Below are positions 4,068 through 8,532 of a stretch of DNA of 64,000 bases, one piece after another (position 1 is the first letter of the stretch; each line of letters opens with the position of its first letter). The position numbers and the translations under genes are program-made. This stretch comes from Variovorax paradoxus (lineage in GTDB: Bacteria > Pseudomonadota > Gammaproteobacteria > Burkholderiales > Burkholderiaceae_C), in NCBI RefSeq assembly GCF_022009635.1, contig NZ_CP091716.1, positions 4,417,001 to 4,481,000 of the forward strand, given 5' to 3'. The notes under the pieces were generated by a model. It ran no database searches, was not told the origin of the DNA, and saw only the letters and a list, made by a program, of their open reading frames with translations.

Positions 4068-4658
4068 CTACCGCCGATCCACCAGCGCGTGCGCGATGGT
4101 GCCGAGGTCCACGTACTCGAGTTCGCTGCCGGCCGGCACGCCGCGCGCGAGACGCGTCACCATCAGGCCACGCTGCTTGAGCGCTTCGCCGATCACGTGC
4201 GCCGTGGCTTCGCCCTCGGCCGTGAAGTTGGTGGCGAGGATGACCTCGCTCACCGTGCCGTCGAGCGCGCGATTGAAGAGCTTCTGCAGCCCGATGTCGT
4301 TGGGCCCGATGCCGTCGAGCGGACTGAGCTTGCCCATCAGCACGAAGTAATAGCCGCGGAATGCGCCGGTGCGCTCCAGTGCGGCCTGGTCGGCCGGTGT
4401 CTCGACCACGCAGAGCTTGGTCACGTCGCGCCGCGAGTCCATGCAGACACTGCAGATCGGCGCTTCGGTGAAGGTGTTGCAAAGTTCGCAGTGCCGCACA
4501 TTGCCCGCCGCCTGCTGCAGTGCGCGCGCGAGCAACTGCGCGCCGTCGCGGTCATGCTGCAGCAGATGAAAGGCCATGCGCGAGGCCGACTTGACGCCGA
4601 CACCGGGCAGGCGGCGCAGCGCATCGATCAGGGCGTCGAGCGAACTGGCGTCGGCCAT
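4068..4658 (-). CDS. recR: Recombination mediator RecR
   Basis: A 196-residue RecR of normal length. It has the N-terminal helix-hairpin-helix ([14 protein letters not shown]), a four-cysteine zinc finger (CELCNTF then CSVC) near residues 57-70, and a Toprim domain starting [13 protein letters not shown]. It acts with RecF/RecO to load RecA on SSB-covered gaps. It starts 7 bp after the ybaB stop, the conserved dnaX-ybaB-recR arrangement of many proteobacteria. Confidence 0.97.
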
Positions 4659-4665
4659 GTGCCGC

Positions 4666-4998
4666 TTAGAACGGCAGCTTCATGCCGGGCGGGAGGCCGG
4701 GCATGCCGGCCGTCAGCTTGCCCATCTTCTGCTCGCTGGTTTCCTCGGCCTTGCGCACGGCGGCGTTGAAGGCGGCGGCCACCAGGTCTTCGAGCATGTC
4801 CTTGTCGTCGGCCAGCAGGCTCGGATCGATGGTGATGCGCTTGACGTCGTGCTTGCAGGTCATGACGACCTTGACGAGACCGGCGCCGGATTCACCCTCG
4901 ACCTCGATGTGGGCCAGCTCTTCCTGGGCCTTCTTGAGGTTGTCCTGCATTGCCTGCGCCTGCTTCATGAGGCCGGCCAGTTGTCCTTTGTTGAACAT
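4666..4998 (-). CDS. ybaB: YbaB/EbfC family nucleoid-associated protein
   Basis: A 110-residue DNA-binding protein from ATG 4998 ([18 protein letters not shown]). The methionine-, glutamine- and lysine-rich first helix and the [20 protein letters not shown] core are diagnostic. It is thought to bind DNA as a dimer and influence nucleoid structure. It sits between dnaX and recR on the same strand, 56 bp after dnaX. A longer open frame upstream (to 5319) is only an out-of-frame reading of dnaX. Confidence 0.95.
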
Positions 4999-5054
4999 CG
5001 TTGGTCCTGATTGTTGGGTTGGAAAAATGGGAGAAGGATAAGAGAGACGAAAGC

Positions 5055-6926
5055 TCAGGCCGGTTTCAGGGTTCCTGGGACGATCTTCGCATCGAAGTCG
5101 CGCATCAGCGCCTGTACTTCGGGGTCGTTGTGAATGGCGTCCTCGGCCACGCGCTGACGCTCGTCGGCGGCCTGCCTGTTGCGGCGCGCAGGGCTGTCGA
5201 CCACGCCACCGATCTCGATCGTGAGCTTGATGTCGTGGCCCAGGCCGTTGAGCGCGGCCGTCAGCTTCTCGCGGCTGGAAGGCTGGTTGAGCGTCTCGCG
5301 CTCGATGCGCAGCATCCATTGGTCGGTGTCACGGCCCACCAATTGCGACTGCAGCGCCAGCTCGCGCGTCAGGGCGTTGATGGCCTCGGACGCGACCAGT
5401 TGCGTGACCGTGGCATGCCAGAAGTCGCCGTCTTCGCTCTGGGGAATGGGGGTGTAGGGAACGCGCTGCGAGCCCTCGGCAGGAGGAATGTCGCGCGCAC
5501 TCGGCGGCGGCTGCACGCGGATGGGCACGCCGACGACCTTGGCCGGTGCGTCGGGCGGCTCCGGGCGCTGCTCGGGCTGGCGGCGGGGTTCGTCGACCAC
5601 GGCGAGGCGTTGGCCCGCGGGTGCCGGCGGAGAAGTCGGGGCTGGCGAAATCGGAGCCGGCGCGGGGGCTGCGGCAGCCGGCTGTTCGGCCGGCGGACGC
5701 ACGACCGGCGCAGGGGCCGGAACGGGTGCCGGGGCACGTGCCGGCGCCTGCGGCGCGGCGGCCGCGGCTTCATTCAGAGTTTTTTTTTCCGTGGAGGCCG
5801 TCGAAGCAGCCGCGTTGGAAGGCTTGAAGGCCAGGAGCCGCAGCAGCACCATGGTGAGCGCCGCGTATTCGTCGGGAGCCAGGCCCAGCTCGCCACGGCC
5901 GTGCAGGCAGAGGCTGTAGAGCAGTTGCGTCTCGTCGGCGGGCATCAGCGCGGCCAGGCGCGCGGTGTCGGCCGCGTCGGGGTCGGTGGCGGCATCGGCG
6001 GACTCGGCACGCGAAGGCACAGCCTGCAGCACGGCCATGGCCTGCAGCACCGCCGTCATTTCTTCGAGCGTGGACGCAGCCGACATGCCGTCGACGCGCA
6101 GCGCCTCCGAGGTCTCGACCACCGTCTTGCCGTCGCCTTGCGCCAGTGCCTCGATCAGGCGGAACACATGGCCGCGATCGACGCTGCCGAGCATCTGCCG
6201 CACGCCGGTTTCGACCAGCTCACCGTTGCCGAAGGCGATGGCCTGGTCGGTGAGCGACAGCGCGTCGCGCATCGAGCCGCGTGCCGCGCGAGCCAGCAGG
6301 CGCAGCGCCTGCGGCTCGGCCGGAACGTTTTCGGTCTGCAGCACGCCCGTCAGGTGTTCGAGCACCGTCTCCGGCGCCATCGGCCGCAGGTTGAATTGCA
6401 GGCAGCGCGACAGCACCGTGACCGGCACCTTCTGCGGATCGGTCGTGGCCAGCACGAACTTGAGGTACTCGGGCGGCTCCTCGAGCGTCTTCAGCATTGC
6501 GTTGAACGCGGTGTTGGTGAGCATGTGCACTTCGTCGATCATGAAGACCTTGAAGCGCCCCTGCACCGGCTTGTAGACGGCCTGTTCGAGCAGCGACTGC
6601 ACCTCGTCCACGCCGCGGTTCGAGGCCGCGTCGAGCTCGGTGTAGTCGACGAAGCGGCCGGAGTCGATGTCGCGGCAAGCCTGGCAGACCCCGCAAGGCG
6701 TGGCGGTGATGCCGCCCTGCCCGTCCGGCCCCTGGCAGTTGAGCGACTTCGCCAGAATCCGCGAGACCGTGGTCTTGCCCACGCCCCGGGTGCCGGTGAA
6801 AAGATAGGCGTGATGCAGGCGCTGCGTGGTCAACGCGTTCTCGAGCGCCTGCACCACATGCCCCTGACCGACCATCTCACCGAAGGTTTTCGGACGGAAC
6901 TTGCGAGCGAGCACGAGATAAGACAT
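5055..6926 (-). CDS. dnaX: DNA polymerase III subunit tau (candidate tau/gamma gene)
   Basis: A 623-residue clamp-loader subunit. It has the N-terminal [15 protein letters not shown], Walker [10 protein letters not shown], a four-cysteine zinc site (C..CGVCQAC), Walker B MIDEVHML and the SRC motif (LSRCLQF). An Ala/Pro-rich linker (about residues 380-480) follows, then the tau-specific C-terminus. ATG 6926 matches the family start; an ATG three codons upstream is possible. At 5780-5788 the coding strand has nine A, read as GAA AAA AAA ACT, at the end of domain III. The -1 frame reaches TGA after three codons (AAC TCT GAA) and the +1 frame after one (CTC), so slippage would give a gamma-like protein of about 385 residues. 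Confidence 0.97.
5770..5788 (-). other. Candidate programmed slippage/frameshift site in dnaX (A9 run with stops in both alternate frames)
   Basis: On the coding strand, A at 5788-5780 forms a nine-base run that is exceptional in this GC-rich gene, where lysine could be AAG. The -1 frame stop is TGA at 5772-5770 and the +1 frame stop is TGA at 5776-5774. This resembles dnaX of Thermus thermophilus, where slippage on nine A with nearby stops makes gamma, and E. coli, where a -1 shift at A6G makes gamma. No clear stimulatory ribosome-binding site lies upstream. The sequence downstream is very GC-rich and could fold. Confidence 0.6.
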
Positions 6927-6982
6927 TGCGGGCATTCTAAAAGGCGCGGCGTCCCTCCCACCCCAGCTTCAACCCCGCAATC

Positions 6983-7008
6983 AAAAAAGCCCCCGTCTTT
7001 TCGTGGGC
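6983..7008 (-). terminator. Hairpin with T-run, minus strand
   Basis: On the minus strand, GCCCACG and GGGGGC flank an AAAAGAC loop and are followed by six T (6988-6983). It could end a transcript reaching past the flavoprotein gene at 7294. It also lies just upstream of dnaX, insulating it. Confidence 0.45.
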
Positions 7009-7095
7009 CACCGCGGAACCGGCTTCGCCGGGCCGCCGGTGTCGCCCCCAGCAGGGGGAAGGAGAAGCGACACGAAGTGCGCGCATCCTGGGGGG
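6989..7095. repeat. Cluster of small palindromes resembling an intergenic REP-like element
   Basis: Between dnaX and ffs there are successive short palindromes: the terminator stem, CCGGC-TTC-GCCGG at 7019-7031, and CCCCC-AGCA-GGGGG at 7045-7058, followed by a GACACGAAGTGC stretch. Such clusters recur between genes in Comamonadaceae genomes as far as I recall. There is no second copy in this window to prove repetition. Confidence 0.35.
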
Positions 7096-7107
7096 TTACA
7101 ATAAGCG

Positions 7108-7206
7108 CTGACGGGCCTCCCTGCATGGTGAAGTGGCCAACCGGGTCAGGTGGGGAACCAAGCAGCCCTAACTGCGTAGTCAGTGCCAGGGGTAAGGCTC
7201 GTCAAC
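7108..7206 (+). ncRNA. ffs: Signal recognition particle 4.5S RNA (small SRP RNA)
   Basis: An RNA of about 99 nt. The conserved Ffh-binding loop reads GTCAGGTGGGGAACCAAGCA followed by GCCC at 7145-7168. The ends pair (TGACGGGCC near 7109 with GGCTCGTCA near 7196), giving the long hairpin of bacterial small SRP RNA. A TACAAT hexamer at 7097-7102 is a good -10 element a few bases before the 5' end; no strong -35 is visible. The RNA joins Ffh for co-translational membrane targeting. The exact ends are estimated. Confidence 0.88.
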
Positions 7207-7293
7207 CTCTTCCGCAGCTTCGTTTCATTCCACGCGAAATGAAACGGAGCTTGCAAACTCACTCAGCGAAAACTCCGATACGGCGCGGGGCTT

Positions 7294-8532
7294 CTACAGC
7301 CCCAGCCGCTGAATAGCGCCGCGCGCCGCGGCAGCGCCGCTCGCCATCGACGCCGTGAGCAGGTAACCGCCGGTCGGCGCCTCCCAATCCAGCATCTCCC
7401 CTGCCGCGAACATGCCGGGCAGCGCATTCGCCATCAGCGCCGCGTCCAGCGCGTCGAAGCGCACCCCGCCCGCCGTGCTGATCGCCTCGTCCACCGGACG
7501 TGTCGCGACCAGCTTCAGCGGCACGGCCTTGATCGTGGTCGCCAGTTGCACGGGGTCCTGCATCGCTTCCTTGCTCAGCGCCTCGTGCAGCACGCCCGCC
7601 TTAATGCCCTCGATGCCGAGCCGGCTCTTGAGGTGGCTGCTCAACGAGCGCGCACCGCGCGGATGCTTCACCGCCGCGAGCACCTGCTCCTGCGTGCGAT
7701 CGGGCAGCAAGTCGAGCAGCAGCGTCGCGCTGCCGTTCGCGGCAATCTCGTCGCGCAGCAGCGCAGATGCGGCATAGACCAGGCTGCCTTCGATGCCCGT
7801 GGCTGTCGCGACGAACTCGCCCTTGCGCGCGAAATGACGTCCCTGGCTGTCGGTGAACGAGATCGCGACCGATTTGAACGGCTGCCCCGCGAAACGGCTC
7901 GAAAAATGCTCGCTCCACCCCGCGCCATCGAAGCCGCTATTGGCAGGCAACAGAGGTGCCACTTCCACGCCCTTGGACAGCAGCCACGGCGCCCATGCCC
8001 CGTCGGAGCCAAGGCGCGCCCAACTCGCGCCGCCCAGCGCCAGCACCACGGCATCGGCTTTCACGGTGACCTCGCCGGCCGGCGTCGCGAACCGCAACGC
8101 GCCCAGGTCGATTGCGCCCTCGCCCAGCCAGCGATGCCGCATATGAAATTGCACGCCCGCCGCGCGCAACCGATGCAGCCACGCACGCAGCAGCGGCGCA
8201 GCCTTCATGTCGGTCGGGAACACGCGGCCCGAGGTGCCGACGAAAGTCTCGATGCCCAGCCCCGCCGCCCACTCGCGCACCTGCTGCGGACCGAACTTCT
8301 CGAGCATCGGCTGGAGTTGCGCGCGGCGCTCGCCGAAGCGGCTCATGAACACGTCGAAAGGCTCCGAGTGCGTGAGATTCAGGCCGCCACGCCCGGCCAG
8401 CAGGAACTTGCGGCCCACCGAGGGCATTGCGTCGTACACATGCACTTGCGCACCGGATGCGCTCAGTACTTCGGCCGCCATCAGGCCGGCGGGTCCGCCG
8501 CCGATCACGGCAACGGCAGGAGAAACATTCAT
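7294..8532 (-). CDS. BaiN/HI0933-like FAD-dependent oxidoreductase (TIGR03862-type flavoprotein)
   Basis: A 412-residue flavoprotein from ATG 8532. It has the N-terminal Rossmann motif GGGPAGLMAAE, then VGRKFLLAGRGGLNLTHSE, typical of the HI0933/BaiN family, a FPTDMKAAPLL segment, and a C-terminal FAD contact (GMFAAGEMLDWEAPTGGY). The substrate is not known for most members. Its ATG overlaps the addA stop by four bases (ATGA, 8529-8532), so it is the third gene of the addB-addA operon. Why a flavoprotein is coupled to recombination genes is unclear. Confidence 0.88.
   Translation of the reverse strand: MNVSPAVAVIGGGPAGLMAAEVLSASGAQVHVYDAMPSVGRKFLLAGRGGLNLTHSEPFDVFMSRFGERRAQLQPMLEKFGPQQVREWAAGLGIETFVGTSGRVFPTDMKAAPLLRAWLHRLRAAGVQFHMRHRWLGEGAIDLGALRFATPAGEVTVKADAVVLALGGASWARLGSDGAWAPWLLSKGVEVAPLLPANSGFDGAGWSEHFSSRFAGQPFKSVAISFTDSQGRHFARKGEFVATATGIEGSLVYAASALLRDEIAANGSATLLLDLLPDRTQEQVLAAVKHPRGARSLSSHLKSRLGIEGIKAGVLHEALSKEAMQDPVQLATTIKAVPLKLVATRPVDEAISTAGGVRFDALDAALMANALPGMFAAGEMLDWEAPTGGYLLTASMASGAAAARGAIQRLGL

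Follow-up and report, generated by a model that had tools for sequence, protein, structure and literature searches.

A conserved run of nine A's in dnaX of Variovorax paradoxus and its relatives as a probable site of transcriptional slippage

Several routes by which bacteria obtain the short gamma form of DnaX beside the full-length DNA polymerase III subunit tau have been described. In Escherichia coli, dnaX is recoded at the heptamer A_AAA_AAG, which is assisted by a stem-loop and, on its upstream side, by a Shine-Dalgarno-like stimulator (PMC3711429, PMC5009743). For Thermus, gamma has been described as the product of slippage at nine A's that are followed by stops in both frames (PMC1088944, PMC5009743), and the presence of two tRNA-Lys was named as a possible reason for the use of polymerase slippage in this organism (PMC5009743). 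Moreover, a GeneTack cluster contains dnaX genes made of two ORFs, of which nine of seventeen carry A10, and the authors propose transcriptional slippage for them (PMC3711429). According to PMC5009743, the gamma protein of Caulobacter is formed by proteolysis of tau. A review from 2012 states that most bacteria besides the enterobacteria and Thermus keep no dnaX frameshift signature and may lack gamma (PMC3290774). In E. coli, gamma has been linked to UV resistance and to Pol IV (PMC5009743, PMC11253446). For the group of bacteria considered here, the accessible parts of the literature contained nothing on dnaX slippage or frameshifting beyond PMC3711429 and PMC5992433, and an earlier mention is possible in the original Thermus paper, Larsen et al. 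2000, in which further candidate dnaX sites may be listed.

The A9 run of the Variovorax dnaX gene

The window, which is the whole analysed stretch of 64,000 nucleotides from Variovorax paradoxus, contains a dnaX gene with a run of nine A's (Table 1). The run encodes residues 383-386 (E-K-K-T) and lies about 61% through the ORF (codon 383 of 626), directly after domain III. An earlier note had marked this run, together with immediate stops in both other frames, as a likely tau/gamma recoding site. Its coordinates 5770-5788 are exact, since the more distant stop ends at 5770 and the run extends to 5788, and the two readings it gave were confirmed: one A lost from the run leads to L-stop and one A added to N-S-E-stop. 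The predicted gamma forms comprise 386 or 388 amino acids (41.5 or 41.7 kDa), and tau 626 amino acids (67 kDa). The cut point just after domain III is where gamma requires it. A second in-frame ATG is present at 6926, three codons into the ORF; it may be the true start of dnaX, as many distant relatives align from residue 3 or 4 only.

Table 1 Features of the dnaX locus in the window
Feature	Position	Strand	Remark
dnaX (DNA polymerase III tau and proposed gamma)	6935..5055	minus	626 codons, ATG at 6935
A9 run, proposed slippage site	5780..5788	minus	read GAA AAA AAA ACT CTG AAT GAA
TGA, +1 frame (mRNA with 8 or 11 A's)	5776-5774	minus	predicted gamma end ...E-K-K-L
TGA, -1 frame (mRNA with 10 A's)	5772-5770	minus	predicted gamma end ...E-K-K-N-S-E
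Clamp-loader domains I-III, common to tau and gamma	5820..6935	minus	Pfam matches end at residue 372
C-terminal part with the alpha-binding tau domain V, tau only	5055..5447	minus	Pfam match residues 497-618
GC-rich foldable 50 nt downstream of the run	5726..5775	minus	-25.9 kcal/mol; possible stimulator

The stretch 4068-6935 on the minus strand contains dnaX followed by a YbaB-like and a RecR-like ORF, both named by eye from their translations, and this order matches the annotation beside dnaX in the E. coli record. Upstream of dnaX and divergent from it lies a gene for the bacterial small SRP RNA (7110-7206, plus strand; Rfam RF00169, 63.2 bits). The SRP RNA was the only element listed when 4600-7600 was scanned with Rfam at E values up to 1, with nothing near the run, and a known RNA element at the run was rejected on this basis. 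No relatives in viral contigs were confirmed.

Among the described systems, that of Thermus thermophilus comes closest, as both organisms have nine sense-strand A's in a single tau ORF, near stops in both frames and two tRNA-Lys species. The comparison relies on the published description and spans distant lineages. Moreover, slippage was measured in Thermus, whereas for Variovorax slippage, its rate and the production and use of gamma are what we infer. As judged from its sequence features, the site would be a new, clade-wide example of the Thermus-type kind, which is defined at the molecular level by mRNAs of mixed A-run length and by a gamma protein beside tau. The earlier note had held that E. 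coli and Thermus use other sequences, which is correct for E. coli but not for Thermus, whose dnaX is also described with nine A's and stops in both frames; the Variovorax site therefore resembles that of Thermus and differs from that of E. coli. With E. coli it shares the gene, a slippery run of Lys codons and the proposed outcome, a gamma that ends in the linker or shortly behind domain III; unlike E. coli, it has A9, no enrichment of Shine-Dalgarno-like motifs and stops close by in both frames. The two-ORF dnaX genes have A-run recoding in common with the Variovorax gene, but in those genes tau arises only through the shift, whereas here it would be the unshifted product. Caulobacter shares the need for a short DnaX form but meets it by proteolysis, which is unrelated to slippage on a sequence.

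The following course of events is proposed. RNA polymerase would slip while copying the nine template T's, so that a share of the dnaX mRNAs would carry 8, 10, 11 or more A's. An mRNA with nine A's, or with a length differing from nine by a multiple of three, would be translated into full-length tau, and all other lengths would lead the ribosome to a stop within a few codons and thereby yield gamma. This gamma would consist of domains I-III and a short tail, lacking most of the linker and the alpha-binding domain V. That the polymerase of this genus slips on A9 is assumed by analogy with other bacteria.

Conservation of the run and of its reading frames

A scan of named genomes yielded 565 confirmed DnaX loci, of which the best 80 were kept and which are thus the nearest relatives by design; by name, they belong mostly to the Comamonadaceae (Variovorax, Xenophilus, Rhodoferax, Acidovorax, Ramlibacter, Polaromonas and others). 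The run is found at the same place and in the same phase in all 80 loci, as A9 in 79 of them and as A10 in one. The A10 occurs in a Rhodoferax metagenome-assembled genome (L052), in which Glu is replaced by Lys so that the run is one A longer on its 5' side and the frame is kept. In the window and the 80 named loci, the nine columns of the run are invariant (81/81). For comparison, the columns 4 to 30 bases upstream hold 0.03-0.97 bits of information and those from the seventh base downstream onward 0.11-1.19 bits. The +1 stop is formed by the six bases directly 3' of the run, and these show fair conservation (1.2-1.8 bits).

To these nearest relatives, an even draw over the family was added, for which 80 genera were sampled; 68 had the search motif, 66 were analysed and, together with five loci from the order search, 71 rows were obtained. 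The run is present as A9 in 46 rows and absent from 24, of which 22 have no A6 or longer, and one row is uninformative because it is too short (L213). Some genomes may be represented, identically or nearly so, among both the named loci and the genus-level rows; L029 and L242 do not differ in the tree. In a quick protein tree of 116 rows, which carries SH-aLRT support only, the A9 rows of the family fall into one clade of 80 rows (SH-aLRT 95), 77 of which have the run; the exceptions are L205 (A8), L210 (A6) and L237 (no run). All 21 family rows outside the clade are without the run. A single origin followed by about three losses is consistent with this distribution. The total branch length of the run-bearing clade amounts to 17.6 changes per protein column. 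Thus, the A9 run in dnaX is kept across the Comamonadaceae-like part of the window's family, in one clade of the aligned sequences. The earlier note had proposed a comparison with related Burkholderiales: the run and both stops are indeed conserved in this clade, but their conservation does not extend over the order (see below).

The stops in both other frames are conserved as well. A +1 stop occurs within two codons of the run in 80 of the 81 genes (window and 80 named) versus 5.2% of control positions in the linker, and in 79 of the 81 a -1 stop is reached within ten codons, versus 18.4% of the control positions. The exceptions are L062, with its +1 stop after 5 codons, and L038 and L064, with their -1 stops after 16 and 13 codons, respectively. 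In the genus-level set, both stops lie within ten codons in 44 of 46 genes versus 3.8% of 7,699 control positions; here the exceptions are L211, whose +1 stop follows after 67 codons, and L108, whose -1 stop follows after 11. Stop distances vary by up to one codon between the analyses because the counting starts at different positions. The +1 stop is preserved by peptides that differ after the two Lys residues, such as TLN, TLK, SPL, TPAL and TVI.

If the run merely encoded a peptide E-K-K-T that is important for tau, the A's would be a by-product, and indeed nearly all genes with the run encode EKK[TS]. However, the family set includes 126 genes with the run, 46 from the family draw and 80 named. 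Every one of them has AAA at both Lys positions, the second codon never being AAG (0/126), whereas at the four other columns with Lys in at least 90% of the genes AAA accounts for 19, 24, 30 and 22%, the Lys codons there being 70-81% AAG. Moreover, the residues at both ends of the run vary while the nine A's stay: the first is E in 122 genes, Q in 3 and K in 1, and the fourth is T in 102 and S in 24, so that the protein changes and the bases do not. The peptide is also absent where the run is absent. Within residues 229-329 downstream of the motif, neither KK nor EK nor KT occurs in 23 of the 25 family rows without A9 (L213 included), or 22 of the 24 informative ones, and the two rows with traces are L205 (EKK on A8) and L210 (SKK). 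A similar picture emerged in another family of the order, f8, in which the 38 rows without A9 include three or four traces (L296, L320, perhaps L319 with EKT on A6, and L333 with EKK on A8) and the other 34 rows, three of them truncated, contain nothing resembling the peptide. Finally, a conserved peptide leaves the stops in the two other frames unexplained. The codon choice and the lack of the peptide in genes without the run led us to reject this explanation, which we consider highly improbable. According to the aligned genes, the run is kept as DNA rather than as a peptide, with selection acting on the bases.

Homopolymers are error-prone in replication and in sequencing. A hypermutable run serving phase variation, a chance homopolymer or an assembly artefact therefore had to be considered, and by the window's own statistics the run is not very improbable: A8 matches were equally or more numerous in 7 of 100 dinucleotide shuffles of the window, so that the run is only mildly unusual by this measure alone, which is weak evidence. 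Against these origins, the run is exactly nine A's long in 79 of the 80 named genes and ten in one, in many separate assemblies, and no length that breaks the frame occurs among them. Moreover, phase variation would entail the loss of tau, which should be lethal; the title of a reference in PMC11253446 states that only tau is essential in E. coli. Phase variation and artefact were rejected on the exact length across many assemblies, and there is very little likelihood left for any explanation of this group. Conservation is the strongest evidence in the sequences against chance.

The whole 7.95-Mb genome has four places with A9 or longer, the dnaX run included, and all four lie on contig 1 and read as A9 on its minus strand. 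Apart from dnaX, none of them falls within a recognisable gene, as judged from ORFs and domains: L082 lies between a DnaJ ORF and a PrkA ORF, L084 downstream of a TamB ORF and L085 in front of the EF-Tu domains that another ORF encodes. L084 and L085 adjoin hairpins, which are terminator-like. In 12 other genomes of the family, 1 to 18 A9 matches per genome were counted, overlapping matches included, and the dnaX run is among them in all nine genomes whose dnaX has the run.

Slippage of the RNA polymerase versus a shift of the ribosome

The features described above suggest that recoding at the A9 run is programmed and that slippage of the RNA polymerase there would yield gamma beside tau, and we put the probability of this reading at roughly 0.77. 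The earlier note's proposal of a recoding site is thereby supported by the conservation of the run and the stops. Two observations weigh against this reading: some members of the family (L211, L108, L038 and L064) have A9 but protect one of the frames weakly, and part of the family lacks the site. Slippage is ranked before a ribosomal shift because two frames are protected, nine rather than seven A's are fixed, Shine-Dalgarno-like motifs are not enriched and two tRNA-Lys are available.

It is unlikely, but deserves weighing, that gamma is instead made as in E. coli by a -1 ribosomal frameshift, here on A_AAA_AAA, either alone or together with polymerase slippage. The heptamer A_AAA_AAA is indeed in phase at the run, and the -1 stop is near in almost all genes. 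However, a ribosomal -1 shift alone needs only the -1 stop, and in the window's family the +1 stop is held at least as tightly; likewise, a ribosomal heptamer needs seven slippery bases, whereas nine are fixed. The heptamer is also not A_AAA_AAG, the second Lys codon never being AAG. Shine-Dalgarno-like motifs upstream of the A9 occur at background frequency (13 of 81 genes versus 14.8% in control windows), and the window's genome has tRNA-Lys genes with CTT and with TTT anticodons, unlike the E. coli-type system with its single tRNA-Lys for AAA and AAG. The folding downstream of the run gives some room to the ribosomal shift: with an average of -19.7 kcal/mol in the 81 genes versus -16.2 kcal/mol in linker controls, it somewhat exceeds that of the remaining linker, so that a stimulator is possible. 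Only 32 of the 81 genes have their first base pair at a distance of 3-10 nt from the run. Moreover, frameshifting was reported in PMC3711429 to rise with the length of the A run in E. coli constructs, in which the two mechanisms were not separated.

A contrast is provided by dnaX A_AAA_AAG sites on runs of six A's, at which the +1 stop is more distant. The distances to the -1 and +1 stops are 1 and 11 codons in E. coli, Salmonella and Enterobacter, which are near-copies of each other, 6 and 15 in Proteus, 5 and 216 in Neisseria, 4 and 59 in L159, 3 and 47 in L246 and 1 and 40 in L210. No A_AAA_AAG site was found in dnaX of Aeromonas and Halomonas. Two sites on runs of seven A's depart from this contrast, namely L132 (4 and 2 codons) and a second site of L204 downstream of its A9 (12 and 14 codons).

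L210 (genome G227) belongs to the window's family and lacks A9. It has A_AAA_AAG in phase instead, followed at once by a -1 stop, which speaks for the ribosomal shift as an option in this family. An AGAGGAG is located 15 nt upstream of this site, and the stretch downstream is foldable, possibly into a hairpin. L210, a single genome on a long tree branch, is therefore a candidate for a switch to ribosomal frameshifting of the E. coli type.

The run could also act in another way at the level of DNA or RNA, for instance in pausing, mRNA decay or an antisense transcript, with no gamma being made. This is scarcely plausible, as it fails to explain the stops in both frames right behind the run and the position of the run after domain III.

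Similar runs in other families of the order and the class

For the survey of the order, 200 genomes were searched, of which 177 had the motif, and 90 loci from 40 families were compared (30 preselected and 60 chosen, one to three per family); nine loci were added later to fill groups. Of the 90 loci, five of which belong to the window's family, 64 contain no A6 or longer in the linker. A9 or A10 occurs in 16, of which 11 are outside the window's family and 5 of these come from genomes with a GC content of at least 0.6. Some rows are too short, or possibly too short, to show a run: besides L213, these are L301, L303 and L308 of family f13 and L293, L334 and L335 of f8.

In f8, A9 is present in 21 of 59 rows, at another position of the linker that is mostly nearer to domain V. 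The site usually takes the form C-A9-C-T-G-A, for example in L112, L274, L311 and L315. Its -1 stop is immediate in all 21 genes, which again would suit a ribosomal shift, and a +1 stop lies within ten codons in 15 of them versus 26.2% of the controls, so that protection of the second frame is looser than in the window's family. On a quick tree, 14 changes of the f8 run fall on weak branches, so that each may be a gain or a loss. In f13, all five of the eight rows that are long enough have A10 close before domain V, which makes this run a candidate recoding site as far as the sequence tells. In these five rows (L302 and L304-L307), the A10 is followed by GCTGA, and the genomes have a GC content of 0.66-0.68.

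A9 is also found in 3/3 rows of f37, 2/2 of f48 and 2/4 of f43. The other families with A9 or longer are f4, f26 and f45, which are AT-rich, and the f43 cases have a GC content of 0.40-0.42; in these AT-rich genomes (f4, f26, f45 and f43), the run may be due to chance. A survey of the class covered 29 new loci from 78 genomes with the motif (94 searched). Only three of the 29 have A9 or A10, none of them with a GC content above 0.5, and L257, L267 and L269 are possibly too short to show the run.

It is tempting, if somewhat short of an even bet, to regard gamma production from dnaX in this order as an exchangeable module. Slippage on A9 or A10 at several positions of the linker would seemingly have been gained separately in the window's family, f8, f13, f37 and f48, and L210 would use a ribosomal shift on A_AAA_AAG with only the -1 frame protected; the mechanism may follow the repertoire of tRNA-Lys.

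Taken together, dnaX has retained a slippage signature throughout much of a large clade of GC-rich betaproteobacteria, with strong selection at the level of the bases, and similar runs exist in other families of the order. If the proposed reading is true, selection for gamma as a product would extend to many more bacteria. The role of gamma could then be addressed by comparing lineages with and without the site, and the set of sites would show when transcription rather than translation serves recoding.
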